Origin: Rhexocercosporidium sp. MPI-PUGE-AT-0058
Lineage: Eukaryota; Ascomycota; Leotiomycetes; Helotiales
Assembly: GCA_020746875.1 (NCBI GenBank)
Contig: JAGTJL010000027.1
Span: 310,001-374,000 of the forward strand
Direction: 5' to 3'
DNA length: 64,000 nucleotides
The position numbers and the translations under genes are program-made. Position 1 is the stretch's first letter. Every line of letters begins with the position of its first letter. Below the pieces are notes generated by a model, which made no database searches, was not told the DNA's origin, and saw only the letters and a list, made by a program, of their open reading frames with translations. Positions 25,380-55,445 of this stretch are shown here, in pieces.

Positions 25380-26379
25380 GCGTCTTAATATGTGGTGGGA
25401 AAAGAAGGGGGGAAGAAAGAAAATTTCTGCGAGTTCTTATGGTTGCATTACCCACCCTGTCTGTCCACACCTCACCTGATGCGGGAGCAACACAACTTTA
25501 TGCGTTGTGAATAGCGGAAAGTGTGTGATGAAGTCTTACTTTGGGAAAAACCTCATTTCTCGGGAAAGAGAGTCGGTGAGGTGTTGTGGGGGGGGAAATA
25601 TTGCAGTAGGCCCGGGCCGCCATTTTGTCCGGGCTGAAATGTGAAAGTTTGCATCGTCGGGCTTCAACAACCACCCAATCCGGACTTTTATACACCTTCA
25701 AAGCTCGCTCTATGGATCCTGCAAGCGAACGTCCCCACCAGCGAAGATCATTGAGTGATGAGTTCGCGATCGCCAGCGGCTTCTCTTGAGTCAGTCGGCC
25801 AGTGAGAAGACTCTCTGCAGCCCGAGGATCCGCGAGACGTGGTATCGGGCAGTCAGGTGCTGGCGATGTGCAGTACAACGCATCTCGTCGGCGCCCTGGC
25901 TCACGAACCATATGCCAGTGCATTAATTATCCGCCCTCTCGTCCTATCAATGCAGGACAGTTGTCGAGACAACGCAGCATGAGCACTTTCGAGTGGTGAT
26001 GACTTGCGTTGTCTGCATATTGCAGTCCTATGCGACAGCCACGTCCCAGGCCCAGCTGTGGGTCGAGTAGGCTGGGCGTGGGATATATCGCAAAGCTAGG
26101 ATCTTTTCCCTTTGCAGAGAAGGTGTGTTCTGCTTACATTCAACATTTTCAAACAAACAGAGGCAAATCAACTTCGCATATGTCGAGATGGTAGCAAACA
26201 GTCACCAAACAGATGACGTCGAAAATGCCAGAGAATTCGATGCTTCATCCTTGCATCCCAAGAGCGGCGAGGTGCAGCATATCACGTGCAATAACCGCCG
26301 ACACCAGATCGATGCTGTTCCTGGAGCGGGATTTGCTGAGGATATCCTGCGCTACTAAAGTTTCGATCTATCTAGGTAG
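25380..26379. other. Intergenic region, possibly holding a degraded gene start
   Basis: This covers the promoter side of the coiled-coil gene. From 26188 a frame (MVANSHQTDDVENAR...) runs 57 codons and ends in an F-box-like AEDILRY just before the F-box pseudogene. It may be that gene's degraded first exon. Confidence 0.3.
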
Positions 26380-27972: not shown

Positions 27973-30001
27973 CTAACTGATAGTAATCGTCTCTTCAACC
28001 GCATCGTTGAAGAGGCCATCCACAGCGTCATCGTTACTCTCGTTCGCCCGATGGTGCAGATATCGACGCAATGACACCCCGACTCTCTCATACACTTTCG
28101 GTTCGCTAGTGCTCCTCAAAACTAGAAAGAAGTCCTCCCGGCCAGCTCCTGGTAATTCCACTACACCCACAAGCAAACAGGCTACCTTACCCTCAAGGCT
28201 TTCGATCCCAGTCAAACTCATCTCATTCATACCATCATCAGGTATAATTGTTCGAGTGTCCTTTCCGAGCGAGACAGCATACCGCTTTCCCTCTATATAC
28301 CCCTCATATGTTTCCCCAACTTGCATTTCCGCGATTTGAATAGAGAAACCATGCACGACTCGCCCCCTAACAATAAGTCTACCACTCATCACCTCAATCT
28401 TCCCGTAAGGATCCAAAGTACTAGGAACAGTAGCCACTTTCACCACCTCCAAGCAGCTACGAAAATGCCTCAATGGAATAACTGATACAGGTCCTTCAAT
28501 AGAGGCCCAACTCCAAGTCGGGGCCCTCCAAACCTTCGGTCGTCGATATACAACCTCCTTGTCCCTCGTATCCCTTGACCGATCATCTTCCACATTCCAA
28601 AGTAATGAAATAACCAGATCAGATCGCCAATGTCCAGCTAGATATTCATCTTTCTCCGTGGTGGCCAAAGCCTGCACTTTCGCAAACTGATTCGCTAGTC
28701 CCGATAATGCAGGTAATTTATCCTCATCGTATCCTAGTTGACGCTCGGTGAATTTCATAATGATGTCGCTCCAATTTTGTCGCAGCTCCGGAGGCGTCAA
28801 TGTCCCGAAAATCTCAGGTTTCCGCACCGAGCGACTGCTAGCTTCGTCGTCTTTCTCGATAAGTGCAGAGCTATGGCCACATTCGCAGTTCCGCCACTCA
28901 TTACACTCCCAGAACAACTCTTTGGAAGTGTACCTCAGCAAACGATTGGAAAGAACAGCTTCCTGCAAACACCATCCCCGACAATTAATAGGTTCAGGTT
29001 CTGGCCCTCGCCCAATCATAGCGAAGTTATCGTGTTCGCGACCAAGTTGCCTGCGGATAAACACAGTGCTATCCTTGTACTCGACTTCTTTGGGTGGAAC
29101 GCCGAAAGATTGTTTATTCAGAATCCCATGAGAGTTTCCTGGTGAGTTATCCCCTGCGATAGTCAATTGAGCGTTGCTGTATACGTCGCACATTTTACTT
29201 GATTCTCTCGCCCAATCATCCGCATCACCTTGAATGATACACAGAGCGTCTATCCAGAGATATTGCAGTCCCAATCGACGAGTAATCGTCACCGCGTCTT
29301 GCAGAGTCCTCGGCATGGCGTTGAAATCGATACGTTGAAGATGGCCCTTGTAGGTATTGGCTGTCGTCTTCAAGACGTTGTGAAAGCGTGGATCACCCCA
29401 GCAATAGCTCAACGCAACGTATTGTCCACTCCTTCCTTGAGATTCTTCAAGGAATGGATCTCTTGTCCCAGCTGCACCGACATCTATCACACGAGTTGGA
29501 AGTGCTTGTAATGTCTCTGAGCGGCAGGCTGGGTGACACTCAACGCATGTCTTCAGCCAAGATGACGCCAGCTCAAAACATGAATCTGACGAGGACTCTG
29601 CAGCTACTTCTTTCACAAATCCAATCGTGTCAGGCATCCCAGGGATAATTTCTCCGCCTGAATAACGAGTTAGCTATATTCATGGATATCAAGGAATGAA
29701 ACTAAAGCCCCGCACCTTTTCTAGAGAAAATCTCCAAATACACCCCATCCCTCCTCCAAAACACTTGACATTGCTTCCCCACCGCAACTTTCAGCTCGAC
29801 ATACTGCGTTAGGTCTTTCTCGTCCCACCTCGTCTTGTAACATGCCAATGTGCCCCATATCAATTTACACTCTGCGCATGAGGTTGTTGCGATTGATGAC
29901 TGGAGATCTGAGACGCTGAAGAATAGACCGGTCCATTTCCCTGCTGGTAACGTCGAGAGAATTGGAGGCCGGAGGTTGGAGCAGGTTATGCAGGGACCCA
30001 T
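27973..30001 (-). CDS. HET-domain (heterokaryon incompatibility) protein
   Basis: Two exons, 30001-29716 and 29657-27973, with a 58-bp intron (G|GTGCGG...TTCAG) and a product of 656 aa. The first exon gives a Cys-containing lead (CITCSNLRPP, SCAECKLIW) usual in this family. The HET domain follows: YVALSYCWGDP, LPRTLQDA-like MPRTLQDAVTITRRLGLQYLWIDALCIIQ, DDWARESSKMCDVYSNAQLTIA, and later RGWCLQEAVLSNRLLRYTSKELFWEC. HET domains trigger cell death when genetically unlike hyphae fuse; most paralogues have no assigned partner, and this one cannot be assigned either. Start ATG at 30001 is the first in frame. With the NACHT gene 7 kb away it forms an allorecognition-type neighbourhood. Confidence 0.9.
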
Positions 30002-30637: not shown

Positions 30638-31609
30638 TTAAACTTCGATAAAACCTTCCATAACCTGCACTGCAGATCCACCTAGAACAACTCTTTTGAC
30701 ATCAGAAGTCTTCGCATCAAGCACAACCTTCGTCTGAATACTGCTTGGCCGTCCCATATCCACACCTTGCTCAATATCGAACGACGTGACGAAATCATCA
30801 GAATCATCCTCTTGTCTATTAGCCCAGACTCGCTTGGCCCAATAGGCAGAGAAAGCCGACGCAGCACTGCCGGTAGCAGGATCCTGCAATGTTCCCCCAT
30901 GCATCATCATCCTCGAGCTAATCCGAACCGCCCCATTCTCTGTCTGTCTATTATCAACAAAGTACCATGTCCCTAGCAATGCGCCCTCAAACCACGGTCT
31001 ATCCAAGCTACCACTGAGCTTGCTTGGTACCACGGATCCTGAAGCAGTTGACAGAACGTCGTTTGATGGCAGCTCGATCATGGCGAACGTCATTCCTTTG
31101 ACAATTGAAACAACAGATAAAGGCCCGAGAATCTTCTGGGCCACTGGAGCTGAAATGCCCGCTTCTGCCGCTTCCTCGTTGGACAGTTGATGCTTGTGAA
31201 CGTGTGCATCATGAGGAACATGGATGAATGCGACTGCCAACTTGGCATCAAATGTATATGGAATCGCCCCAGCTTTGGTAATAATGGTAGTCTTTTCGTT
31301 CTTCGGAAGCTCTTTGTTCGACAGTCGCTTGTTTGCAAGTAACCAAGCTGCTCCGATCGTCGGATGACCCGCAAAAGGCAATTCGCAGTTGGTCATGAAA
31401 ATGTCGATTTTGTGCTCGGGGGCCACATCTTCTATCTCGTGGATGATGATGGTCTCGGAATAATTGAACTCTCGAGCAATGTTCTGTTTTTGCTCCTAGG
31501 TCAGGCTTTCTCCGTGGGGTAGAAGGACGACGCCTAATGGGTTGCCGGTAAAGCGTTTTGTGGTGAAGACGTCGAGAGTGACGAAAGGAAGTCGTAGCGG
31601 GGTCGACAT
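30638..31609 (-). pseudogene. PhzF-family isomerase-like gene with one in-frame TAG
   Basis: A single frame of 324 codons from ATG 31609, interrupted by TAG at 31498-31496. Before the stop: FVTLDVFTTKRFTGNPLGVVLL, the family N-terminus. After it: NIAREFNYSETIII, where the Glu of SET is the catalytic acid/base of PhzF. Then come CELPFAGHPTIGAAWLL, DPATGSAASAFSAYW and a C-terminal strand pair ending VQVMEGFIEV. PhzF-fold proteins catalyse isomerisation or epimerisation of small metabolites; the fungal members are largely uncharacterised. All core motifs are intact, so a single-base change or a sequencing error would separate this from a working 323-residue enzyme. The aligned family position is often Gln or Glu, so CAG-to-TAG is the simplest origin. 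Confidence 0.85.
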
Positions 31610-33026
31610 AATTCAAGTCGTATTGCTGTACTGGAATAGTTCGAAGAGTTTAAGTGTCGTAGACATTGTTTGAAGCCCGAGGCTTTGGGTAGCAGTCATC
31701 CTAGATCTCTTCTCAGGCTAAGGTGTATTTGTAATACGTCTCGCTGAAATTACTCAGAGAGGCCGAGTTAACCGGCTTAAGCCGTCGCTCACGAGTCATT
31801 TCCGACTTCCATTTGCACTCCTTTCTTGATATTGTATAATCAACCAGTTTGCTAAATGGATAAGCACACTCGTTGGTCCAAAAGAAATGGAATTCTCACA
31901 TTCAAAGCTCAAGTCGGGAACTTCCAAGATGAGCTCCATCAACAATGCAGCGATGCTTTTCTTGATGTGTTCTCTACCTCGAATTCCTTCTGGGAAGTAA
32001 CTACATAATATCTTTGAAAGAACGAAAAAAAAAAAGGTGAAGGATGATGTCTAAGTCACTTTCTCGTGGCACTCCATGTTCCTCCCATTCTTCATCCAGA
32101 TAACCGCCATTTAGATCTAGCTCCAACGCTTCAAATCAAGTCATTGATACAGTCCACTGCTGATTGTGAGGTGAGTCTGGACACAAACGGCATCTTGCAA
32201 AAATCAGCCAGAAGCTGTATAGTATTCCCGGTCATCATTGGATGAGTGGGCAAACGTTGCACATTTGTGTAGTAGATTGAGTGGAGAGGGGCGGAGATGT
32301 TGGACGCCAAATACGAAATTGGAGTCGGTATTAACCCAGTCAAGTAATTGGAAATCAGTTTTTTTTTTTAAAATTTTTTTTTTTAAAAACGAATGTTTGT
32401 ATATTAAACTTTGCATTATGACTTGATACAGCACTTAATTGCACGACAGCATATGTGGTGGGGCTTGCTGGATAGCTCGCTTAAATCATTCGAGGGAAAA
32501 GTGGACAACAAAAAGGATAAAGAGTGGGTAGAATCCCACAACAATAAAGACAAAAATCCAAAACATACAACAGCAGGTATTCGCTGGTGGTCACCCACCC
32601 AACTACTAATCTGCCGATCTGGTGCTTATGTATGGCAGAGCGGACGGGATGCCCATTTCTCACCAGTCTATGGTCGTATGTGACAGGGTCGTCTTTATTT
32701 GAGTATCTGATCATATAAAAAATTTCTATTTGAGCGTATTCAACATGGATGGCTTCAAACATTTGCTGTAATTTGTATTTTGTCCATCTTTCAGACCTAA
32801 ACTTATTCGTCTATCCCCAATGTATCCAAAGCCTGCCTCGACTGAGATGTCTCCATCTTCACCCAATTGCTGAGTACACTGAAATTGCATCATCACTGAC
32901 AGATCCTGCGTCAGAATGCAAAGCCCCCGAAGCACTGAATCTATTAAACATGGTAGATCTTGCAGCTACCTCGCTCATTTGCTCCACGGTTGTTGGCAAA
33001 TTGTCCCCCATCTGCTGGAAGTTTGC
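31610..33026. other. Intergenic, AT-rich with poly-A/T tracts
   Basis: Contains a poly-A run near 32020 and alternating poly-T and poly-A tracts at 32359-32390 that can fold back on themselves. The short ORFs are not convincing. Confidence 0.4.
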
Positions 33027-33903
33027 TCAGGACTTCAAGTCGTTCCAAAGCTCCTCAGTCATGGCGTTGTGAGACGACCACTGCGGTGGAACATACTGTG
33101 GCATGCAACTGTTTTCCATGTATGGCTTTAGTCTCATTAGAGATACGTTGACGCCTGAAATATACGGGGGCTTGCTCACCGATCGCGTTGCAAAGTCAAC
33201 AAATAGCACTGCAAAAGTTACCCAGCGCTTCGTTCTTACCGGACCCCTCAAGTGTCTTCCTCCACGGAATTCCACTGTGCCAGTTTCTCCAGACAAAACA
33301 TTACGGAAGTTCCATAGAGATCTTCTATCATCACCTTGCATATAGGCGACCAGCTCTCCTTTTGATCTTATGCCCATCAGCGCTTGGTTGCAGTCTCTCA
33401 GACCAACCCGGCGTGTTTGAAGCTCTCCAGGACGGTGTTTCCATTGGCCAAAGTCATACCATAGCCCCGTTCCCTCAATACTGGTGTTTGGGCGACAGTA
33501 TTCATGGTTTCTTCGCGTTGTATGTAAGATCTTCAAGATGCAGTCCTCGTGGATGATGGTAGCCATTGCTATCTGCTTGAGCTCATGCAAGCTAAAATAT
33601 CGGGCCGTAGGGGCGACATGAATATGACTACCGCAGGAGATACTGTTCTGAGCAACCCGAAAAAGGTCATTCACTGCTTCCCACACCTTGTCAATCTCAG
33701 CCTCCCAGTTGTTCTTTACCTCAAGCTTTGGGGAAACAATTTCGAGTGAAACTAAATGATCAGTCAGTATTGTGATGTAAACACTACACAAATTACCATA
33801 TAGAGCACTTCTTCATACCATCATTCGATCGTGGCCTTAGAATCAGAGAATTGTCGTACGTAACGTGCCAGGTGTCGTAATCTCTGTTATTTATCCAAAA
33901 CAT
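33027..33903 (-). CDS. Amidoligase-family protein, N-terminally truncated
   Basis: Two exons, 33903-33819 and 33751-33027, with a 67-bp intron (ATG|GTATGA...TTTAG) and 269 aa. It matches the putative amidoligase family (COOH-NH2 ligases with a glutamine-synthetase-like fold): YDTWHVTYDNSL, then VSLEIVSP, GSHIHVAP, LVAYMQG, LWNFRNV and TVEFRGGRHLRGPV. The same landmarks occur in the second copy at 52577-53506. The family's N-terminal GIEIE-type motif, present in that copy, is absent here. I found no exon carrying it in the 230 bp up to the next gene. It could be an inactive paralogue, or its 5' end may have been lost. Substrate unknown. Confidence 0.68.
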
Positions 33904-41725: not shown

Positions 41726-42743
41726 GGAGTCAAGCGCGGTCGGCGTGTGAGAAGACATCTCCCACAGTCAACCAACCTTGGTGGCAGACCAAACAATGTT
41801 GAGGATAGAGTTTACAAATTCGATGGATCTCTATTGTGGTGGTGGTTTCAAGAATTGTCGGGATGTAGTTTCTTTGAGAGTTTCGCGAAGGAGAAGGAAT
41901 TTTTCTCTTGAATTGGTTCATTTGTACGGATACGGGCTTTCCCGAATCCTGTCAGAAGGGTTCTGTGATCGATTCTATCTTTTTCTTTGGTTTGTTTGTG
42001 GTTCATTTTCTTAGCTTGATATCGACTTTCAAGACAAGTTTGAAGTGGTTTCATTTTTTCTTACTTTCGTATCTGTACACGCATAGGCATGCTACTTTAG
42101 ACTTCTCCAAAAAAAAATTTGTTGAAAAAAAATTTGTCGAAGCAAACCAATGTCCAGTGTTGTTTTTAATAGGGGGCAGCTAAATCGACACACGGAAATA
42201 GCTAAATCGACATACGCTAAAAATGTATTGACTTGGCGAGTGTCATCTATCAACCTCGCTATGCTATACTAATTTGTACTGCGTGGCAAGGGAGCCTTAT
42301 GTATAGCATAAATGTTCATAATTATGTAATTACCCCTGACTAGGAATGAAAATTGAAGTTATTCAGACTACCTAGGTAATTATATTATTTGTATTATTAA
42401 AATTACAGAAGTTATTGAGAAGTGTTGTAGTAGTGGGAATGTTCGGGGTAGCCGGTTACCTCTATCCAGGCAGCCAGGTAGGTACTCTTCTACGGCAGCC
42501 ACGGGCGACCGGAGGCGCTACAAGTGACGATGCAAGCCCAAGTACCTTATTTTCTACTCCCTTCAAGCTTCACTCAGCTTCAACATCATGCATCAACGCC
42601 TCACTTCTAACATCAGTATCTCTATATACGATTCCAGTCACTCTGCCAGGTCAATTGGCCTCTATTGACTCCAAAGTAGCACCCAATCCCCTCCTCGAAA
42701 CAATGACGGCATGTTGCAATCCAGACCTCATCCGGCGACATAG
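41726..42743. other. Intergenic region left of transposon island
   Basis: AT-rich, with a tandem-like pair of A-run/TTTGT blocks at 42110-42140 and a repeated AGCTAAATCGACA unit at 42178-42220. A 123-codon ORF at 42415-42786 shows no family resemblance and overlaps the transporter relic in another frame. Confidence 0.4.
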
Positions 42744-42862
42744 GGAAATCTCCAAACCCTCGAATATACTCAGACCAATCCCATAATAGGTGCTACCTCT
42801 TCATATAACCCGAGAGATGCCTCTAAGAAGCTGGAACAATAGGCCGAGAAGAGGGCGAAGGC
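42744..42862 (+). pseudogene. Transporter gene fragment left of the insertion
   Basis: In the frame that continues across the transposon, this side reads PIIGATSSYNPRDASKKLEQ, a TAG, then AEKRAKA. Removing the transposon and one TA joins it in frame to TNLLANHL and RMFKNTLATTIAV on the right side. It is therefore the N-terminal part of the membrane-protein gene whose body lies at 51519-52600. No start codon can be fixed. Confidence 0.6.
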
Positions 42863-42864
42863 TA

Positions 42865-42890
42865 ACGTCGAGCACCCCCCTTCCGCCCAC
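42865..42890 (+). repeat. Left terminal inverted repeat of Fot1/pogo element
   Basis: 26 bp, identical to the reverse complement of 51491-51516. It is followed inside by two further copies of a CCCCTTCCACCCAC-like unit before CTCGCG, so the left end carries a small tandem expansion that the right end lacks. Confidence 0.93.
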
Positions 42891-42999
42891 CCCCCCCTTC
42901 CACCCACCTCCCCCTTCCACCCACCTCGCGTAATATCAGCACTCTCTATTCAACACTTAATAATTCTATTCTACGTCAACTTCTATATAAGAAATTATA

Positions 43000-43940
43000 A
43001 AGTCAGAATCTCCTTTTAATTCTAGTTCTATTAATATAATTTAACGCTTTCCAGCCGCAATTTGAGCCGCTTAAATAACACGTGTTATCGCAAACTTGGA
43101 ATTTGAGCTAGTTTAGACTTTTCTCTTTTTCCTTAGCCTTAATTACTCTAATCGCTCTTTTAACTCTTTAATTCTTATATTTACCTTCCTTAATTCGTAA
43201 TCCTTTTTATTAAATCCTTTTATAATCTTCTTAAAAAGTAAACGCTGCGTCGGATGTTAATCATGTGATTCGCTTACTAAAGTGCGTATTTATAAACGAA
43301 GATCTTTTGTAGCTTTAAGAGTTTATAATTAAATAAAAGTATTAGAAAGCTCAGGAGGTAGCGTTACTACTCTATGAGACTCTTAGAAAGCCGGAGCTAT
43401 CGATTTATTACTATTTTCTAGTAATAACGGGCTTATTAAGGGTTTCGCCAGAGATACCGGCCATAATCTATTAGTTCTCCACTTAAATTTAATATTAAAA
43501 AGGGTAATAATATCTCGGCGTGCTTTTTAATAATAAAGAAGGAAATTGCGCTTGCTAATTGGCGTGGAATCGATTAAAGAACTCAATTTATATAATTCCT
43601 TCCGGTAAGCGCGCTTTAGCGTAGAAAAAACCGTCAAATCTAAGGATTATAAGACGTGTAACGTATATGCGGGTAAATATAATAAATATATATTGTTTTC
43701 AAGACACTTCCAAAGGAATTCCATAGTCTTATGGCTTCCGTGGCCGTTTAGAATAAAAAGTCTTACTAAATGATCACGTGAATCCGTTTAAGAGATAAAC
43801 ACTTTTACTAGCTATTTAAAAGCCGTATCGTCGGTCGTCCACTTATTATTGGTTATAGTAAAGTGCTAGTTATTAAATACGTCTAATTAAGTCAGAAACT
43901 ACTGTTATTATACCGATTTTCCCTTATAAATTATAAGAGG
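43000..43940 (-). pseudogene. Fot1/pogo transposase, C-terminal part
   Basis: Read on the minus strand with stops and frame changes ignored, it contains HGSHKTMEFLWKCLENNIY, then VFSTLKRAYRKELYKLSSLI, SKRNFLLYYKKARRDI, FNIKSGWRTNRLWPVS and a basic C-terminal tail. These match the end of the DDE superfamily core and the C-terminus of Fot1-like transposases. Stops are TAA and TAG where Gln or Trp are expected. Not functional. Confidence 0.82.
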
Positions 43941-43945
43941 TTATG
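43941..43945. repeat. 5-bp target-site duplication of gypsy element (left)
   Basis: TTATG here against TTATA at 50760-50764 beyond the right LTR; the one mismatch is a G/A transition, in line with RIP after insertion. Confidence 0.75.
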
Positions 43946-44460
43946 TGTTACGGACGCTCCTGGACGACTACTGGGTCCCAAGAGGAAATGTTCTAGGAGC
44001 TATTATAATCTTAGGAACCGAGTGGTTCCTGGGAGTACGGCTCCTAAAAGCTAACGGAGTCTTAAGACTTACTTATACTTAGAATATTTCATTTATAATA
44101 TAATCTTAGAAGTGGTATTGTAGCCGCGGGTTTCTACGACTACGTATCACGTGATAAGAATCGAGGATTATAGCGGGTCACGTAATAGATCCTTAAATCC
44201 GTAGATCCCTCGATAGCCGAAGGGATCTAAGGATTTAAGGATTTAATATCTTAAGGGATCTAAAGGATTTAAGAAAAACGAAAGTTTTATATAAGACTAG
44301 CACGTCTACTATTAGATAAGAGCTTTATACTTAACTGAAAATAATATCTCAATTATACTAATTATTATTTATTTCCTTATACGTGATATACTTACTTCTC
44401 GATTATTAAGATTAATATAACCTATTATATTTATACCGAGTAAATATATAAACCGTGATA
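43946..44460 (+). repeat. 5' LTR of gypsy element
   Basis: 515 bp, the same length as the 3' LTR. Differences between the two are almost all C/T and G/A transitions, and this copy carries the A/T state at most of them. Confidence 0.94.
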
Positions 44461-44589
44461 TTTTAAGCACCTTTTCGTCAGAAGTACCGACTTACGTATA
44501 TTATATTAACCTCCTTAAATAAAAGCTAAGTATTTAGCTCACGGGCAGTATTATTAGTATACTTATATCATTCGCACTTGCCTTTAAAG

Positions 44590-45500
44590 GAAAGGACCGC
44601 GAAGAGAGCGAGGATAAAGAGATGCCCGATGCTTAAGATTACTTAACGCACGAACTTAAGGAAACTTTGAAGGTTAAGCTTTCCGATATCTTCTAAGGGA
44701 ACCGAAGGAACTTAGAGACTTTTATTTTATAAGTAGAATTTTACTAATACTTTAACGACGATAAGTTCTTTACTAGTGAAAACTACGCTCTTTAGACGGT
44801 ATCGTACTTTAAAGGCGAAGCTATACGGTGGATCGAGCCGTTCCTTAGGGATTACTTCGAGAACGAAGACACCTGCGGGGCCATGCTTATTACGTAGATT
44901 ATGTTTAGGACCTAAGGAGGATTTAAGAAGGAAATTCGGCGAATATTCGGCGATATCGATGAAGTTAAAACGGCAGAAACTTACTTATACGGCTTAAAGC
45001 AAGTTAATAGCGTAGTGGCCTACGCTACGGAATTCTAGAAGCACGCTAATAAGACTGGCTGGAACTCTTAATTACTTATTAGTTATTACCGGCGAGGGCT
45101 TAAGGATTATATCCGATTAGAACTTACCAGGATCGATCCTTAAGTAAGAGATATTCTTATTCTTATTAAGTAAACCGTCCGAATTAATAACCGCTTGCAC
45201 GAGTTTAAACGTGAATAGCAGACGTACGTAAGGAGGGGCCAGAGATAGCCTGGCTACCGATAAAACGAGGGACGCCGACGATAGGGCAACCCTAAGGATA
45301 ACCGATAATCAGATCTTATAGAATACGACGCTACTTATAAGAAAGGGAAAGGCAAAGCACGACAAGGGGGGCTGTCGAAGGAAGTTATGAACGAACGACG
45401 CGAAAAGAAGTTATATTACGAATATGGCCTTCCGGGGTATATAATAAGCTTATACCGCAAGAAGAGCGCTGGGAAGAAGCAACTCAACTTTATAGGACGA
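44590..45500 (+). pseudogene. Degraded gag region
   Basis: Recognisable gag-like sequence (YFKGEAIRWIEPFLRDYFEN, then YLYGLKQVNSVVAYATEF, NRLHEFKREQQ-like text) in a frame broken by stops. Near 45410 a CCHC zinc knuckle is still traceable, but two of its Cys positions now read Tyr (TGC to TAC). Not functional. Confidence 0.7.
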
Positions 45501-46399
45501 GGGGCGTACGACATTACCGGTGTACCCCTTCCGCTCTCGTTAAGGGAAGTTTAAATTAGCGCCACTTACCGTTATATGACGATAGACGAGCTTAACGCTA
45601 ATTATATCGATAGTCAGATCGAGGTCGATGGCGGTGAAGAAAATAGCAAGTAGAGCGAAACGGACGACAATTATATCCGTTAATATATGATAGGACTCGA
45701 GTCCAGCGACTGGACCTAACGGGACGAATAGTACGTCCAGCAACGGGTACCCGAGACTATACGCAGGGCATAAAGCCCAGAAGACATGACTAGTGCCGAG
45801 AGGAGCGAAGACTCTTAGTACTAGGGCAATGCTATGCTCTTAGGACTAGCATTCTCTGGATTCCAAGAATACGAGGTCTGGCGAGTCACTTAGCGGGAGG
45901 AATATCTTACCCGCGAGATTCTTAATACTAGGCACTGGATAAACGTCGACACAGGAGTTACTTATATCGAACCAGGGGTCGTCTCACGCGGAAGGCCGTA
46001 ATAGAGCGAGGAATACGAAGTAGTCTTCCGAAGTAACTTACGTATCGCCTGGAGGACGATAGACGTCGAGAACAGCGTCTTTCGAACGTACGTTCAGCTA
46101 ATTCCGACCGACGAAATACCGTTCCGACAAACGGCAACGCGAATAAACGTAAGAGACGTATAAGAGGTCATCGCAGAAATACTACGGAACCGAATGTGGG
46201 TTAACTTTCGGGATGACTTAGAGACATATTACGAAAGACCCTTTAGACCTTTCGTACCCTTAGGTATATACTAATTATACCGCATCTTATACGAAAATCC
46301 GGAGAATCGGCAATAGGAAAATATATTAACCGAAGAGGTTTACGTCGAAGGAATAGACTTGCGTACGTTCGCAGTTATCGGGGAAGGCAACTATTTAAC

Positions 46400-49300
46400 C
46401 TTCGACGTCGATATTAGAAGAGTGAAACTACGGGCTATAATGGATTCCGGAGCGTAAGGGAACTTTATATTTCTTACTATTACGGTCTAGTATTTCTTGC
46501 CTACCGAAGTTAAGAAGGACGGGTACTAACTAGTGCTCGCCGACGGAGGACTTGCCGCGAACGGCCTGATCGATGTACAGATAGAGCTATTATATATAGG
46601 AATCGGCAGATACTCTGAATATATCCAGTTCGATGTGATTAAGATTAGGAGATACGATATCATCCTAGGGCTATTATAAATATAATTCCATAATCCGAAA
46701 ATCGACTGAAAAGCGCAGAAGTTAGAATTCAGTAATTATAAGAGCTACTTCTAGGACAGGAAAGCAGTAAAAGGCTTAAGAGGGTTAAGCGTAACTTCTA
46801 AGGAAGAGCTTAGGAATAAAGTAACGGGCTTTATAACGGTCGATATACCGTTAGAATATAAACGATTTGAGGTATTATTTAAAGAGGAACTAAGTAGTAG
46901 CGCCTTACTTAAATACTAGGACTACGATCACCGGATCGAGTTAGCTGAAAGCACGAAGCTAATATTCCAATTATTACGGGAATATTTAATTATAGACTTA
47001 ATAACGATTAAGAAATACATTAATGAAAACTTAACGAAGGGATTCATTCGAGAGTCTAAATCCCTGTGAGGAAGTAACGTCCTCTTCGCAGCGAAGAAAG
47101 ACGGCGGACGAAGAATGTGTATTGATTACCGTCGATTGAACGATGCTATTAAAAAGGATCGTTATGTACTACCTTTAGCTAAGGAGCTACGCGACAGGCT
47201 CAGCGGCGCTAAGATCTTTACTCAGTTAGACTTATAAGGCGCGTATAACTTCGTAAAGATAATTAAGGGAGAAGAAGAGAAAATAACATTCCGCACACGT
47301 TTCGGTTATTACGAGTATACGATTATGCCCTTCGGACTAATTAACGCGCTTATTATATTTCAGCGTCTAATTAATAATATTTTATAGTAATACTTGGACG
47401 TAATATATATATATTACTTAAACGATATTTTAGTTTATTTTAAGATAAAAGAATAATACGTGAAAGACGTTATAATAGTATTAGAGAAGCTTAAGGCTTC
47501 CTCGATGCTCCTAAAGCTTAAGAAGTATTATTTTTATAAAGAAGAAGTCACTTTCCTAGAATACGTAGTCACTATCATAAGACTGGCTATAGACCCCTAA
47601 AAGGTTAAGATAGTCGTTGAATAGACTAGACCTACTAGTGTTAAGGAAGTACAATCCTTCTTAGGATTTACTAACTTCTATCGACGATTCGTTCGAAGTT
47701 ACTCGAAAATCGCCGCACCACTTATAGAGTTGATATATAAAGACAAAAGCTTCGACTGGAATAATAAAGCAGAGATAGTTTTCCGAGACCTTAAGGAAGC
47801 CTTTATCAAGGAACTAGTCTTTATATCCTTCGACTTAAATAAGGAAATCACGATAAAGACAGACGCTTCCGACTATGCTATAAGGGCCGTGCTAAGCTAA
47901 CCGGGCGAGGACGGCAAATAGTAACTAGTTGTATACTATTCGCGGAAACTCTCACTAGTAGAACTCAATTACGATATATACGATAAGGAACTGCTAAAGG
48001 CTATAGACGTAGTACGCGAATGAAAGGTCTACCTCGAGGGATCGCCTTACGAGGTACGGATCTTAACGGATTATAAGAATCTCATTTACTTCACGATTAC
48101 TAAAGAACTAAACCGACGACAGGTTCGATGGTACGAAACACTCTTTATAATTAAACTTCGATTTTTATATATTAAAAGAACGGAAAACGCTAAAGCCGAC
48201 GCTTTTAGTAAGAAACCAGAATATCTCGTAAATAAGATATACGAATTATATATTATATTAAAAAAGGATAATGACTCGCTAATGGTTAATTACAGGCAGC
48301 TAGCAACGATAAGCCAGGTCCCCGAGAGAGTCTGGAAAGGCTACGCTAACGACTTAGTAGTAGCCGAATAAAAAAAGCAGCTAGGCGAGGGATTCTCTTT
48401 TACCGATACTGGAGCTCTTCTGTACTAAGGACGAATTTATATTCCTACGCGGAATAAGGTAGATTTCGTTAAAGAATAGTATGGGCTACCGGCTTATAAA
48501 CATTAAGGGATAGCTAAGATATTATTTAAGCTCTCTAAGGAATATTATTTCCCAGGAATAAGGAAAGTAGTTAAAGACGTAGTCTCGTCTTGTGATATAT
48601 GCATACGGAATAAGGCAAATCACTATGCGCCGTATAAGCTTATAAAGTCACTAACGACGCCGCCACGCTTATAAAAGTCAATAGCCTTAGACTTCGTGGT
48701 CGAACTACTACCCTCGAAAGATCCGATCACCGGGATTATTTACGATTCGATCTACGTAATAACGGATAGAACAACGAAGTACGCGTACATAGTACTAGTA
48801 CTAAGCATATAAGACGCGCCTACGATAGCGCAGGTATTCCTCCGAACGATCTTCGCGAATCACGGAATACTAGACGAGGTCATCTTAGATAGAGACAAGC
48901 TTTTTACCTCGAAGTTCTGGAAAACATTAGTATCGCTCTTAGGGATGAAACAGAAAATGTCAACAGTATTCCACCTTTAGACCGACGGCCAAATAGAACG
49001 AATTAACCAGATAATAAAGACTTATCTTCGATATTATATAAATTATAAATAAGACGACTAAGTTTAATTACTTTTAACCGCCTAATTTACATATAATAGC
49101 GCAGATCAAGAGACTATTAGAGTATCGCCGTTTTATGCGAACTACGAGTATAACCCGACGGTATATAATATACCGATTACGGGTTAAGAGACCGCGTATA
49201 AAGCTATATTATAAAGAAATAAGCTTAAATAACTGCATAACGAACTATCAACGGATATTCTATTTATTGCATAAAGATTAGCTATTTATTATAACAAAAA

Positions 49301-49690
49301 GCGTAATATAAAACTAACGCTAAAAAAAAGAGATAAAGTTTACTTGCTCAGAAAGAATATCGCGACTAAGCGACTAAGCAGTAAATTAAATTACAAAAAG
49401 CTAGGATTATTTAAGATTGCGAAAGTTAAGAGACTAATCAATTACTAGCTAACACTTCCAAAAACCATGAATATCCACCCGGTATTCCACATATTACTCC
49501 TCGAACCAGCACCGCCAGGAGCACCTCCAGCCCTTGTTATAGAAGTATAACCGGTGAACCCGAGCGCCGAATACGATATCGAAACTATTTTGGACTATTA
49601 GTATTTCCGCGGTATCGCTAAATACTTGATTAAGTAGAAAAGGTACCCATAATCAGAAAACACCTGGGAACTCAAGTCTAACCTCTACTG
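46400..49690 (+). pseudogene. Degraded pol region: PR, RT, RNase H, integrase, chromodomain
   Basis: Landmarks in order: AIMDSGA of the aspartic protease (about 46436); RT motifs CIDYRRLNDAI (about 47117), TQLDL, YYEYTIMPFGL and YYLNDILVYF (about 47412), where the catalytic Asp-Asp reads Asn-Asp. RNase H follows with [15 protein letters not shown] (about 47850) and YDKELLKAI. The integrase has SSCDICIRNKANH, SIALDFVVELLPS and TDGQIERINQIIKTYLRYY (about 48976). A chromodomain-like end has YDIETIL, AKYLIK and SENTWE (49570-49670). Many stops are TAA/TAG at Gln or Trp sites. Not functional. Confidence 0.88.
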
Positions 49691-49821
49691 CCCTGAACTC
49701 CTTCGAGATTTTCATTCTCGAAATCCAGGGCTGCTCAGAAGGAAGGAGAGCCGAGGTCAGGCACGTCGACCTCCGCCCCAAAGAAGGACGCCAGATAGGC
49801 GTCGGGCTCGAAGGCAGGGAA

Positions 49822-50223
49822 CTAGGGACTAGGAACATCCTCAACGGGCTCAGAAGGAGGCGTTAGAGGACGAGCGGGGGCCACCGTCTTGCTAAGCTTG
49901 AAGAGGCACACCGGCCGATCGGGCCAGGAGAACTCTGTCACGTACCCCGAGGAATCGCAATCGCTGCGTTTAGAACGGACGCATTTAGAGCATCTCTTCG
50001 AAATGGACAAGTCCAGGAAACAAGTACGAGAGAGGCTGCGGCAGAAAAAGCAGGGCTTCGCACGACGCGTAGCACCCTCAATGCGAAGCGCCAGCTGGAT
50101 GCGCTGTTTCTTTTTTGTTTGGGCGACGCCGGGTTTCTTTATAACTCCAGATATAATGGATAAGGAAGATGGCCGTTGGCAGCCACCGACGTTTCCTAGG
50201 TTATACTTAAGCGTGGGGACCAC
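49822..50223 (-). other. Antisense ORF at 3' end of gypsy, Cys-cluster type
   Basis: A 133-codon open frame on the strand opposite pol, ending close to the chromodomain. It has no ATG; the frame opens at a GTG. It has two clustered Cys groups, PCFFCRSLSRTCF and RCSKCVRSKRSDC, that resemble a zinc-binding module. The region is GC-richer and nearly free of the RIP damage seen upstream. Fungal gypsy elements often carry such an antisense frame near the 3' LTR; whether it is expressed is unknown. Confidence 0.4.
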
Positions 50224-50244
50224 GCTAAGCTAAGAAAAGGATAG

Positions 50245-50759
50245 TGTTACGGACGCTCCTGGACGACCACTGGGTCCCAGGAGGAAATGTTCTAAGAGTT
50301 ATTATAGTCCTAGGAACCGAGTAGTTCCTGGGAGTACGGCTCCTGGGAGCTAACGGGGTCTTAGGACTTACCTGTACTTAGAACATTTCATTTATAATGT
50401 AATCTTGAAAATAGTGTCGTGGCCGCGGGTTTCTGCGACCACGTATCACGTGATAAGAATCGAGGACTACAGCAAGTCACGTAATAGATCCCTAGATCCG
50501 TGGATCCCTCGACAGCCGAAGGGATCTAAGGATCTAAGGATTTAACATCTCAAGGGATCTAAGGGATTTAAGAAGAACGAAGGTTCTATATAAGACTGGC
50601 ACGTCTGCTATTAGATAAGAGCTTCGTGCTCAACTAAAAATAGTATCTCAATTATACTAATTATTATCTATTTCCCCGTACGTGATACACCTACTTCTCG
50701 ATCATTAAGATCAACACAACCCACCGTATCTACACCGAGTAAATACACGGACCGTGACA
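50245..50759 (+). repeat. 3' LTR of gypsy element
   Basis: 515 bp. It keeps more G and C than the 5' LTR at variable sites, and together with about 700 bp upstream of it looks less mutated than the rest of the element. Confidence 0.94.
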
Positions 50760-50764
50760 TTATA
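50760..50764. repeat. 5-bp target-site duplication of gypsy element (right)
   Basis: TTATA, the partner of TTATG at 43941-43945. Confidence 0.75.
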
Positions 50765-50789
50765 TAGAAACTCCGGTTATAGAGATACA

Positions 50790-51440
50790 TCTAATGATTA
50801 ACGTTTAAGTACGTGAGCCTGGCTGTTTTCCTTAAATCTTGCGCTTTTCGGCGTGCCTTATAACGAATCTATTAAGACCGTAGCTTTTTATAATATCGGT
50901 CTCGTCTATATTCTATCGTTAATTAACTGGAATGGCCTTAATAACTAAGATCTCTAGTTTTTAGAACTAAGGCTTAATAACTTTAGAATAAACGCAGTTA
51001 ATACGTACATAATCGACATATATTTGCCTTTTCGTTTTTAAAATAGGATTCCGTGCCAAAAACTTATAAATCCAGTGTCTTCCGAGTGGTAAATGATCTC
51101 CTTAAAGAGCTAGAAGTCTCTCTCTAAAAACCTTAATTTATGCATACGTAATTCCACGGCCAAGAAACTCCTAAGTCAAAATCCAATTAGTCAATCGACT
51201 CTCTACTATCGTAGATAGCCTTTACAAGTGATTAGCACCTTCCTAACGTGATAAAGTAATTGCCTTGCGGCCACGAAGTGTAGACCTCGGAATACCTTAC
51301 TTAAGCGATGCCTTTCGCAAAGACTTGCCATTTGCGATCTCTATAAGCGCAGACATGACGTCATACTCGGTATATTAAGGTTTTATAATAAGAGCAAGTC
51401 ACATTCCAAATTTAAGAAGAATTAATTAAAGAATCAAGGA
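50790..51440 (-). pseudogene. Fot1/pogo transposase, N-terminal part
   Basis: On the minus strand, with stops ignored: IEIANGKSLRKAS and GIPRSTLRGR (helix-turn-helix, CENP-B/pogo type), then RLSTIVESRLTNWIL and EFLGRGITYA, then NIDETDIIKSYG (the first catalytic Asp region), RHAEKRKI and GSRT, ending ISITGVSI just at the gypsy insertion. Typical Fot1 order. Broken by many stops. Confidence 0.82.
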
Positions 51441-51490
51441 GTAATTAATTATTTAAGTTAGTAGGTAGATGTAACGGTAAGTTAAGCGAG

Positions 51491-51516
51491 GTGGGCGGAA
51501 GGGGGGTGCTCGACGT
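51491..51516 (-). repeat. Right terminal inverted repeat of Fot1/pogo element
   Basis: 26 bp, exact reverse complement of 42865-42890, followed by TA at 51517-51518. Confidence 0.93.
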
Positions 51517-51518
51517 TA

Positions 51519-52600
51519 TCTAGACCAATCTTCTCGCTAATCATCTATAGCAGAGGATGTTCAAGAACACTTTAGCAACTACAATTGCCGTCATATTGGC
51601 CTTAATACCGGCTGTCGTCCGAGTATATGGCCCTGCCGCATATCTGGCACCTATAACGACGGTGTTTGGACACCCTGGGAGGCGGCTGGGCATGATGGTT
51701 GAGGCTTTAGTCCTGACTGTCTCAAGAACATTACTTGGAGTTGGCTGGTCTGTCCTAGGAGTGTACTTGTCAAGTCTTGTCAACGAGAACAATGCACTTG
51801 CAGCATACACGGTCAAAGGCGTTTTCTTAGTAGTGGCCTTGATGTTCCATGGATTCCTGAGATCCCATACCCCGAGACTGTTTATCTTCGTCCTGCTATT
51901 AGTCATTGTCTCTGTTATCAACTTGACTGGTACCTCCACAATTGTCACTCCTACAAGTGCCACTGTAATTTTATATCCCATTCTTACGTCGGTGGCGATC
52001 TTGTTATTAATCAACATGCTTGTATTTCCGGAGTTCTCAAGTAGTTTCCTTGGTATCACTACGATTGAGACTCTTGGGGAGACAGTTGAAGCTCTAAAAG
52101 ATGCCGGGAAATACTTTATTGCCATGGCCGAGCCGGCTACTGGTCAAGATAAAAGAGAAGAGGAGGCCAGTGCACCTGCAACAGCTGCGGAGGAACCTGT
52201 AGAAAAGTCCGATCAAGAATCACCTTCATTCTTTCAAAAGATTCTGCATTTTATAGGAAAGGAGCGACCAGAGTCACCGAAACCAGAAGCCGCCGAAGGG
52301 CCAAAAGCTATCAAGCTCAAGTCTTTGACTAATGCGAAGCCAAAACTACGTGCAAAGTTGGCTGGATGTAAGGCTGCACAATAGGAGTGTAATTTTGAGC
52401 TGGCATGGGCCGTACTCCCTCCGAGGGACTTGAAAGTGATCAGTGACACCAACATGAACAAGCTCGTGGCAAACACGATAGCTCTGATTAGTGCTTGTGA
52501 GAGCAAGTATGCTCTCATGGGTGATGAGAATGACAAGATCGACCCAGAGACCTTGGAAGAGCACGAACTCAAGACGCTAGAAAAAGCAGCTGGTCTTGAA
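51519..52600 (+). pseudogene. Membrane transporter relic (ArAE/FUSC-like), interrupted and 3'-truncated
   Basis: From 51557 an open frame of 275 codons gives RMFKNTLATTIAV, YGPAAYLAPITTVFGHPGRR, then about six hydrophobic segments (LGVGWSVLGVYLSSLV, VKGVFLVVALMFHGFL, LFIFVLLLVIVSVINL, VAILLLINMLVF). This resembles the N-terminal membrane half of fungal putative ER/aromatic-acid-exporter-like transporters. The frame is stopped by TAG at 52382-52384 but continues in frame as ECNFELAWAVLPPRDLK and YALMGDEND. Upstream, between the TA and the first ATG, are two more TAG codons. The coding similarity ends near 52600, where the amidoligase sequence begins on the other strand. The family protein should run several hundred residues further. 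It is a relic, not a working gene. Confidence 0.72.
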
Positions 52601-53506
52601 AGTGGAGAGTATTCTTCTCGTCCGGGTACTGTACTGGAGACCCATTGCAATGAACGTGACAGCAAAGGACATCCACGCTAACGTCCTCACATGGCCACGC
52701 ATATGCCTCCCGCCGCGAAACTCAATTGTATATGTCGGAGGATGCCCAGAAGTAGGGGATCGATTAAGATTCAAGAAGTTCCATAGAACTCGTCTTCGCT
52801 TTCCGTCTTCCGGGGCTCCTTGCATGTAACCAATCAAGGCACCAAAGTCGCCGCATGCTTTGATATCTTCGGCGATTCTTCGCAAGGCAAGTGAAGTTCG
52901 CTGTTTAAGTAGCTCGCCCATCCTACCTGCCTGGAGAGAGTTGCGCAAGCAATAAATGCTCTGGCGACGATCTTCGGGTAGTAGAGAGAAGACGTAAGGC
53001 TCGTAGATGCAAGTTGCAAATGCGATAACTTTAGCATCGCGGATGTCGAAGTTGGTTCCAGCTGACCCGACATGGACGTGGGTACCGGGATATGGATTGG
53101 GAAGAACTTTGAAGACAATCTTCATCGAAACCCAGAAAGTCTTAATTTGATGCTCGAAGTCTTCTGCCAGTGACATTTTGGGTGACACAGCTTCGAGTGC
53201 CACTTTGGAATTGTCAGTGTATTGAACTTGGGTAATGAGTTGTGTTTCAACGAATAATTTTTACTTGCCCTGCGAGCCTTCGGTCCGAAGTGAGGCATCA
53301 GTGGTAATTACCCACTTATCATAATGTTCTGGTGTCTTTCTGTTGACAGAAGCATTGTCAACGATTGCTCTAAGGCCTCTGTTCTGCATTGCCTTTTGCA
53401 GTCTTTCGTAGTACTGAGGAGGTACCCAGCCCTCCCTCAACTTCCAGGGCTGGCCAACAGCCTCGATCTCAATACCGAATGTAAGCGGCCGGAGTGTTAG
53501 AGCCAT
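52577..53506 (-). CDS. Amidoligase-family enzyme, possibly C-terminally clipped
   Basis: Two exons, 53506-53269 and 53202-52577, joined through an intron with a GC donor (CAGG|GCAAGT...CAAAG), 287 aa. Landmarks of the fungal putative amidoligase family: FGIEIEAVG (residues 10-18, a metal-binding E-x-E), WVITTDASL, VALEAVSP (80-87), GTHVHVG (119-125), LIGYMQG, LWNFLNL and IEFRGGRHMRGHV (239 on). These enzymes are predicted to form amide bonds between a carboxylate and an amine at the cost of ATP. Compared with the copy at 33027, similarity stops soon after the EFRGG block. The last ~20 residues may therefore be foreign, from the junction with the transporter relic. It is divergent from the AIG2-type gene at 53920, the classic fungal neighbourhood. 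Confidence 0.78.
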
Positions 53507-53919
53507 TGATAATACGAAGACTTGATAACCTCAAGAACGGGTCAAGCCTGAGATACCTGTGTAGATTTTTTCAGGAATCAAATCAACTTTCTGATTCAAT
53601 GAGATGACATGAAAGTCTAGCGTTCCCTAGAGAACTGCATGCAAAAATCAGAAACCCATTCTTTAGCCACACAATCCTGGGCGGGGTCCCTATCAAAATT
53701 AAAACTGCTCGAACTCAGTGCTGCGATGCTAACGAATTACTGATTGGCGTTAGTGGGCAAAAGCGGCGCCGAAGGCGCACACAGCCGCCCAGTCATGCTG
53801 AGACAAAGTTGCACCAGGCTTCTCTCTACAATACTCCCCTACTGGACGCACCACAGGTCAAGCTTCTCATCAACTTCAAGAGGTCCAGTTTCCAAATCCA
53901 CAACAACGAACAACCCGCC
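53507..53919. other. Shared promoter region of amidoligase and cyclotransferase
   Basis: 413 bp between two divergent starts. No ORF of its own. Likely to hold a bidirectional promoter; no specific motif could be assigned. Confidence 0.45.
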
Positions 53920-54696
53920 ATGAGTTTAGCAACAGCAGCCAGACGGCGCAATTTGTACTTCGCATACGGTAGCAATCTCTCTTTGGGGCAAATGGCATCT
54001 CGATGCCCAGAGTCTCGCTTTGTCGGTCGTGCGGTGCTTTACAATTATCGATGGCAGATCAACGAGCGAGGCTACGCTAATGTGATCGTGGACGACAATT
54101 TTTCGGTGGAGGGGCTTTGTTACCTACTCAGCGAGAAGGACGAAGCTAGGCTGGACCGCAACGAGGGCGTGCATACCGGAGCGTACGAAAAGGCTGAATT
54201 ACAAGTTGAGCTCACTTGTCGACCTGCTGCTCTGATAGGCAGAGATGTGGCAGACATCGCCATTGACGGAAGTCTCGAGTTACTGTCTAATGGTCTTGAT
54301 CAACCAAATGAAGGAGAAGGCAGTGATCATAAGAGACCATGCTCGTGGCCATCAGGTGTCGAGGACGAGCTGAAAGAGTGGCAAGGCTCGGAAATGAAGC
54401 AAGGCGAGATGACAAAAGCTTTGGTGTATTTAAGCAAGTCATTCATCATCGATAGCCTTCCCCGAGAGGAGTACGTCGACCGCATGAATGCTGGGATCGG
54501 TCACGCTCTTGCTCTAGGCATCTCGCCCCACTTCATCGCTGTGGCAATTCGACCATACATCTCTAGCGAACCCGAGACAACAGAGATGGAAATTGAAACA
54601 ACAGATGCAAAAGATAGGCATTCGCCACGTGTCCGCAAGACTCAGAAACGTGGTACAGGACAGGAGAAGCAGACATTTTTGACTTGGATCAGGTAG
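53920..54696 (+). CDS. AIG2-type gamma-glutamylcyclotransferase
   Basis: Single-exon gene, 258 aa, of the gamma-glutamylcyclotransferase/AIG2 fold. The substrate-binding loop is LYFAYGSN (12-19), followed by RCPESRFVGRAVL, YRWQINERGYANV and GLCYLLSEKDEARLDRNEG with Glu82 as the likely acid/base, then AYEK. The second half has ALVYLSKSFIIDSLPREEYVDRMNAG. Family members release 5-oxoproline from gamma-glutamyl amines or peptides. The ATG at 53920 was chosen because it directly precedes the domain; the frame is open further upstream without another ATG. Its divergent neighbour is an amidoligase, which suggests a make-and-break pair for a gamma-glutamyl amide. C-terminus is basic and disordered. 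Confidence 0.9.
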   Translation: MSLATAARRRNLYFAYGSNLSLGQMASRCPESRFVGRAVLYNYRWQINERGYANVIVDDNFSVEGLCYLLSEKDEARLDRNEGVHTGAYEKAELQVELTCRPAALIGRDVADIAIDGSLELLSNGLDQPNEGEGSDHKRPCSWPSGVEDELKEWQGSEMKQGEMTKALVYLSKSFIIDSLPREEYVDRMNAGIGHALALGISPHFIAVAIRPYISSEPETTEMEIETTDAKDRHSPRVRKTQKRGTGQEKQTFLTWIR

Positions 54697-54799: not shown

Positions 54800-55445
54800 T
54801 CAAGGTGTTCCGTTTCTTTTACCAACCAATAGTCTATCAAAAGTTCTCGTCAAAGAACTCCTGAGGAATACCCAAGTGGTTGCATCTTGAACCCCACTAG
54901 CAAGACGTTCTTGGTACTCCTCTCGAGGACTTCCAGCGGTCGTTCTTTGTTGATCTACATATACCAGTGCAGTGAGATGTACGCTTGTATTCGAATGAAA
55001 CGCCACCACAGGGGCTAGATTCATCGTCACGTTTCCAGATTGTTGATCGTTCTGCGGTGCAGCTCGAATTTCGGCTGCTTCGCGAATGAACCCATCAATC
55101 TCCCTCACTCTCTTCCCACTAATCAAAGCATTTGCTGAAAGGAACCTCGATACCCAAGACAAGCTTCGTGTAAGCCCATGGCACTCCTTCGTTGGCATCT
55201 AGTCCACACTCGTCATTCTTGCTAAGCAAGTAGCAAGGTCCTTTGACGCAAGCGCCAGGGCAAGGAATGATGTTGGCGAAGCCGCGAGTGTTGATTTGCC
55301 ACTTCTAGTCGCGAAGCATGCTAAGCCTAAGGTATCGCCTTTCAGGGCAGCGCTGCGCCATTTGTTCGAGGTGTAGATTGCTGCCGTAGGCAAAGTATAC
55401 TGTCTGGATCCTCCGCGGAGAGGTGGAGATGGTGTTGAGCGACAT
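54800..55445 (-). pseudogene. Second AIG2-type cyclotransferase copy, broken
   Basis: From ATG 55445 the frame reads TVYFAYGSNLHLEQMAQRCP, then TAG at 55307-55305, then KWQINTRGFANIIP, GPCYLLSKNDE and DANEGV. It then loses its frame between about 55130 and 55180. Similarity resumes in another frame with LTALVYVDQQRTTAGSPREEYQERLASG and runs to 54800. The order matches the intact gene at 53920, with which it converges. At least one nonsense change and one frameshift make it non-functional. The catalytic Glu region (DANEGV) is still visible. Confidence 0.83.

Follow-up and report, generated by a model that had tools for sequence, protein, structure and literature searches.

A linked amidoligase and gamma-glutamylcyclotransferase gene pair conserved in fungi, with a truncated ligase in Rhexocercosporidium sp. 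MPI-PUGE-AT-0058

A 64,000-nucleotide stretch of the genome of Rhexocercosporidium sp. MPI-PUGE-AT-0058 (hereafter, the window; C20:310001-374000 in this 62.7-Mb, 60-contig genome) carries an amidoligase gene and a gamma-glutamylcyclotransferase (GGCT/AIG2) gene side by side. The pair is real and conserved and is of a known kind, and the local copy is damaged on the ligase side. Judging from sequences and predicted folds, we lean toward an ancient fungal gene pair that adds and removes a gamma-glutamyl group on a small molecule. The Pfam description of PF12224 states that fungal Amidoligase_2 members adjoin cyclotransferases of the Aig2 family, an association that reportedly goes back to Iyer et al. 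in 2009. The same two families are adjacent in the window, the present pair being a member of this association that differs in the 3'-truncation of its ligase.

The two genes were divergent, with start codons at 53506 (minus strand) and 53920 (plus strand) separated by an intergenic region of 413 bp (53507..53919), as described in an earlier note made from the letters of the window; the motifs that it listed (FGIEIE, GTHVHVG, and EFRGG in the amidoligase, YFAYGSN and Glu82 in GGCT) were likewise all found. The GGCT gene (53920..54696, plus strand) consists of a single exon for 258 amino acids and is full length and intact in this genome. The protein contains the YFAYGSN loop and a catalytic-type Glu82 within LDRNEGV, a residue that was invariant across 41 sequences. 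Matches above the cut-off were obtained to PF12224 (Amidoligase_2; 31.2 bits for the open reading frame (ORF) of amidoligase exon 2, cut-off 22) and PF06094 (31.8 bits for GGCT, cut-off 22.8); GGCT scored 26.1 bits to PF13772, below the cut-off of 27; a search with the AIG2_2 profile gave a single match, in the window GGCT and below cut-off.

The amidoligase gene is encoded on the minus strand in two exons. Exon 1 (53269..53506), which aligned to the closest full-length relative (P0001; 317 amino acids, 62% identity by tblastn), contains FGIEIE and the W65/T68/D70/S72 region, and scored 19.2 bits to PF12224 by itself, below the cut-off of 22. Exon 2 (52577..53202) contains GTHVHVG, WNF, and EFRGGR, and its final 57 bases (52577-52633) had no homology with the family. 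Between them lies a 66-bp GC-AG intron (53203..53268; GCAAGT...CACTGAC...AAAG) that opens with a GC donor, closes with an AG acceptor, and has CTGAC as a branch-like site; its position and phase (phase 1) were those of a 67-bp GT-AG intron in a second amidoligase copy at 33 kb (see below). The spliced product EGSQ|VALEAVSP aligned with VEPQ|VSLEAVSP of P0001, and splicing at a GT located four bases past this donor would put the downstream sequence out of frame. Since an in-frame TAA is located inside this intron (53268-53203), it was rejected as a gene-breaking stop and most likely does not disrupt the gene. In the genome search, the PF12224 match spanned this stop, with one TAA read, and reached 54.8 bits. 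The amidoligase retained the positions that were invariant across 60 relatives, and its match to Amidoligase_2 holds despite its missing C-terminus.

For other fungi, linkage was deduced from protein-database records, both proteins being assigned to one contig by its identical size rather than by maps, and species were matched by the names visible in the lists. The comparison covered the best 120 of 486 GGCT matches, including the protein of the window itself, and 42 amidoligases from a similarity list together with the best 120 of 130 from a profile search scoring 7997 candidates. Among these matches, both genes were found on one contig in 10 of the 11 species named in both lists: Nemania sp. 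NC0429, Ustulina deusta, Hypoxylon sp. FL1857, Xylaria cf. heliscus, X. hypoxylon, X. scruposa, Chaetomidium leptoderma, Mariannaea sp. PMI_226, Neonectria ditissima, and Purpureocillium lilacinum. U. deusta had two such contigs, each with one gene of each family, and the gene numbers of the pair were consecutive in three species (X. hypoxylon, N. ditissima, and P. lilacinum). The one unmatched species was Orbilia oligospora, the entries of which come from different strains. Both genes were also carried by a 5958698-bp contig outside the 11 species, which one of the lists labels Fusarium solani and the second F. keratoplasticum, and by four short metagenome contigs (5746, 7264, 16274, and 18066 bp). 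The rough chance expectation was 0.42 shared for the 12 named contigs, assuming 40-Mb genomes with one GGCT each, and 0.007-0.24 exact size matches among 47 and 66 contigs without a species label, with one named Fusarium entry (1741 bp) included among them. The amidoligase-GGCT linkage is therefore conserved in fungi far above this expectation, which bears out the co-occurrence that the earlier note had taken from the Pfam description. Furthermore, paired amidoligases were spread over distant, well-supported clades of the tree, indicating that the linkage is old. The named relatives of both proteins among the matches listed were mostly Pezizomycotina, and several, Cadophora and Oculimacula among them, belong to Helotiales. 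Apart from the pairs, neighboring gene numbers were noted for two amidoligases in P0011/P0037, P0019/P0032, and P0192/P0209; the numbers were one apart in Oculimacula (13278/13279) and two apart in Colletotrichum trifolii (006382/006384) and Exophiala xenobiotica (004950/004952), where the gene in between could be a cyclotransferase.

EFRGG was present in 143 of the 145 listed amidoligase relatives, a frequency that partly arises by construction because the lists were built by similarity. In this genome, PF12224 matched eight places, two of which were of the EFRGG type, both in the window. In five of the six others, QH or HH came after EFR or EWR; the sixth was a partial match without the motif. 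No GGCT match was found near these six places in a search that scored the best candidates only, and the possibility that every amidoligase of the genome is paired with GGCT was rejected on this basis. On the evidence of this genome, pairing tracks the EFRGG subfamily and not PF12224 as a whole. Three non-EFRGG amidoligase genes were located on both strands within 5.4 kb (G000:C4:866491-871904), a local expansion of the family. Besides amidoligases and GGCTs, the amidoligase loci had few neighbors in common (for example, C4 and C3, and the window and C23), and the neighbors in the window (a transporter, glutathione S-transferase (GST), dehydrogenase, and others) pointed to no clear pathway. No bacterial or archaeal relatives were confirmed in two scans of genome contigs, one with a fungal alignment and one with a phage amidoligase. 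For the genomes of Sclerotinia and Botrytis, enrichment for a putative amidoligase domain has been reported (PMC3158057).

The fold of the amidoligase was predicted for P0001 rather than for the truncated window protein, and fitted glutamate ligases (YbdK, glutamate-cysteine ligase, and glutamine synthetase (GS)); the closest solved fold of GGCT was the human-type gamma-glutamylcyclotransferase (C7orf24 type), not GGACT or ChaC, and both assignments were confident. From its fold and motifs, the EFRGG-type amidoligase would spend ATP on activating glutamate at one of its carboxylates, probably the gamma-carboxylate, and couple it to an amine or amino acid within a small molecule. From its fold and catalytic Glu, the cyclotransferase would then take the glutamyl group off as 5-oxoproline and release the amine. 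Running two opposed steps at the expense of energy would be sensible if the glutamyl group were a temporary one for protection, detoxification, or carriage, as in butirosin biosynthesis, or if it marked a pool kept in store and released later. The reactions, their order, and the class of substrate are all inferred. The interpretation given in the earlier note was supported in part.

The same data bear on two other functions. PafA and Dop appeared in the fold list of the P0001 model (4bjr, 4b0r, and 7oyh), and the title of Iyer et al. 2009 mentions peptide modifications of proteins; a protein-tag cycle, in which a protein would receive glutamate or a peptide from the amidoligase in the style of PafA and Pup and the cyclotransferase would help in its removal, nevertheless appears improbable to us. 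It is somewhat less remote, but still unlikely, that GGCT performs salvage or glutathione-side housekeeping on ordinary gamma-glutamyl amino acids while the amidoligase makes an unrelated amide, the two being neighbors merely for co-expression: GGCT resembles the general human enzyme and proteins of this kind are numerous (the 486 matches), whereas its linkage to one amidoligase subfamily is conserved across distant clades and the six other amidoligase places of the genome had no GGCT match nearby.

Among known systems, the nearest worked-out pair for making and breaking a gamma-glutamyl group is BtrJ/BtrG of butirosin biosynthesis, in which the group is put on by a ligase and released as 5-oxoproline by a cyclotransferase of the AIG2 type. 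The ligase, BtrJ, belongs to the ATP-grasp enzymes and has a known acceptor, whereas the fungal amidoligase has a predicted GS-like fold. In the PuuA/PuuD path for putrescine, the amine is gamma-glutamylated and a second enzyme removes the group. PuuA and 1-naphthylamine gamma-glutamyl synthetase both gamma-glutamylate amines with a GS fold, and entries of the latter in the Protein Data Bank were among the superfamily alignments of the P0001 model; PuuD differs from the fungal partner in being a thiol hydrolase that gives glutamate, not a cyclotransferase that gives 5-oxoproline. The nearest fungal parallel is FluG of Aspergillus nidulans, which couples a putative amidohydrolase with a gamma-glutamyl ligase and for which the authors propose a gamma-glutamylated intermediate (PMC6478659). 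FluG differs in being one fused polypeptide of a TIM-barrel amidohydrolase and a GSI-type ligase, and in belonging to other sequence families. An amidoligase and a gamma-glutamylcyclotransferase also occur in one phage genome (Phage-ZRK32), together with a glutamine amidotransferase and glutathione synthase, and the available portion of the paper reports no reaction for the pair (PMC10945688). No experimental work on a fungal amidoligase-GGCT pair was found in the literature searched, as far as the accessible texts extend.

More tentatively, EFRGG amidoligases may be a fungal ligase subfamily that evolved with a dedicated GGCT and puts gamma-glutamyl on and off one metabolite or developmental signal. 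If so, the pair would be a counterpart of BtrJ/BtrG with the GS fold, parallel to the FluG route. Since the linkage is conserved, the two fold assignments are confident, and the proteins are small, the reaction is easy to test, and gamma-glutamyl metabolites of a new fungal class could come to light. It may also be the chemistry behind development-linked ligases: in an Epichloe study, a putative amidoligase (of the EFRGG or another type) stands under a heading of genes upregulated in stromata and preferentially lost, and is absent in 4 of 12 asexual strains (PMC8982410).

The local amidoligase has lost its end. The tblastn match to P0001 stopped at residue 262 of 317 (window position 52634), the last 55 residues present in full-length relatives were missing, and position 52577, given in the earlier note as the end of the gene, is the end of the ORF and not the native gene end. 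The adjacent sequence was a fragment of an ArAE_2 transporter gene (51519..52631, plus strand) that carries a TAG at 52382-52384 and is cut off where it meets the amidoligase (about 52631-52634). At the DNA level, this fragment shared 82% identity over 1043 bases with a gene on G000:C13 that has an intact frame of 1218 amino acids. Since the amidoligase and transporter homologies meet within a few bases, a rearrangement probably fused the transporter fragment to the amidoligase and deleted its last 55 codons. As to repeat-induced point mutation as the cause of transporter decay, 20 of the 72 C>T or G>A changes relative to the intact copy had a CpA/TpG context, by eye no clear preference for it.

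The lost part included the last long helix (280-296) of the P0001 model, and most superfamily alignments of this model extended through it to residue 315-317. Because of these 55 missing residues, the activity of the local amidoligase is doubtful even though the invariant positions were kept. There is just short of an even chance that the pair is a relic in this genome, with a ligase that is non-functional without its C-terminal helix and a GGCT kept by chance or for another use; the loss of residues where a broken transporter fragment adjoins, the reach of the superfamily alignments, and the broken state of the second copies of both genes fit this explanation. On the other hand, both amidoligase exons were open, GGCT was full length, and the invariant core together with the short terminal branch of the window amidoligase (0.11 versus 0.26 for its sister) suggests that the C-terminal loss was recent or tolerated. 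A relic would be compatible with a gamma-glutamyl cycle in the intact relatives.

Several points weigh against such a cycle as the function of the pair. The local amidoligase is truncated and the pair may be decaying in this genome, and to our knowledge no substrate or activity has been described for either fungal protein. Fungal linkage is taken from contig sizes and gene numbers, with most distances and all orientations outside these data. In a Mantel test on 17 pairs, among them those of the window, the 5958698-bp contig, and all four metagenome contigs (with one amidoligase used where the contig held two, in Xylaria cf. heliscus and X. scruposa), protein distances correlated with r 0.86 and none of 10,000 permutations was as high, but this correlation partly reflects shared species descent. 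Moreover, the amidoligase of the 5746-bp contig joined Ustulina pair B, whereas its GGCT was located among the pair-A GGCTs, and the pair-B GGCT of Ustulina was on a very long (2.94), weakly placed branch. A GGCT remnant at 55 kb was missed by the profile and found by a protein query, and diverged GGCT copies elsewhere in the genome may have been missed likewise. In the two phage records inspected, out of eight matches, no cyclotransferase was annotated within ~6 kb of the amidoligase, many genes being unnamed.

Second copies of both genes were present in the window. The 33-kb amidoligase comprises exon 2 (32970..33751, minus strand), with an in-frame stop near the C-terminus, and the 67-bp GT-AG intron (33752..33818, minus strand), upstream of which the exon fragment was without FGxExE; the exon with this motif, and hence the catalytic N-terminus, was absent from a copy that the earlier note had listed simply as a second amidoligase. 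In the tree, it clustered with proteins of Cadophora, Oculimacula, and Stipitochalara (support 100/99), apart from the first copy, and belongs to a separate ancient clade. The 55-kb GGCT (54881..55427, minus strand) is a remnant, with a TAG in the N-terminal part and a frame change further on, as the description of this copy as broken implied. It was 53% identical to the first GGCT over 95 residues and grouped with a protein of Rutstroemia (support 95/86); the rest of this tree was poorly resolved, with 14 of 36 inner branches starred. C4 held a third, more degraded GGCT remnant, at 1.88 Mb and ~1 Mb away from its amidoligases. Both gene trees rejected the 33-kb and 55-kb copies as a recent duplicate of the pair. 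Of the proposal that the module had been duplicated and partly lost, the damage thus stood and the duplication was not supported: separate clades and remnants suggest old paralogues decaying in this neighborhood rather than a simple or recent module duplication.

An upstream piece of the ArAE fragment (42682..42863, plus strand) was split off by an insertion of ~8.65 kb (42863-51518). The insertion is bounded by 29-bp perfect inverted ends starting TAACGTCGAGCACC, is low in G+C (0.38-0.43 per 2 kb), and contains a direct repeat of ~530 bp with 86% identity (43935-44465 and 50235-50764). It looks like a terminal inverted repeat transposon with nested debris, and a piece at 48024-48368 appears to resemble Ty3-type RNase H.

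Elsewhere in the window, a PhzF-like enzyme (30641-31495) was encoded ~1.5 kb away from the amidoligase remnant at 33 kb, and 27976-29673 encoded a HET-domain protein. The region 22864-23549, within an open frame of 954 amino acids (22575-25436, minus strand), was internally repetitive, with units 63-72% alike in DNA.
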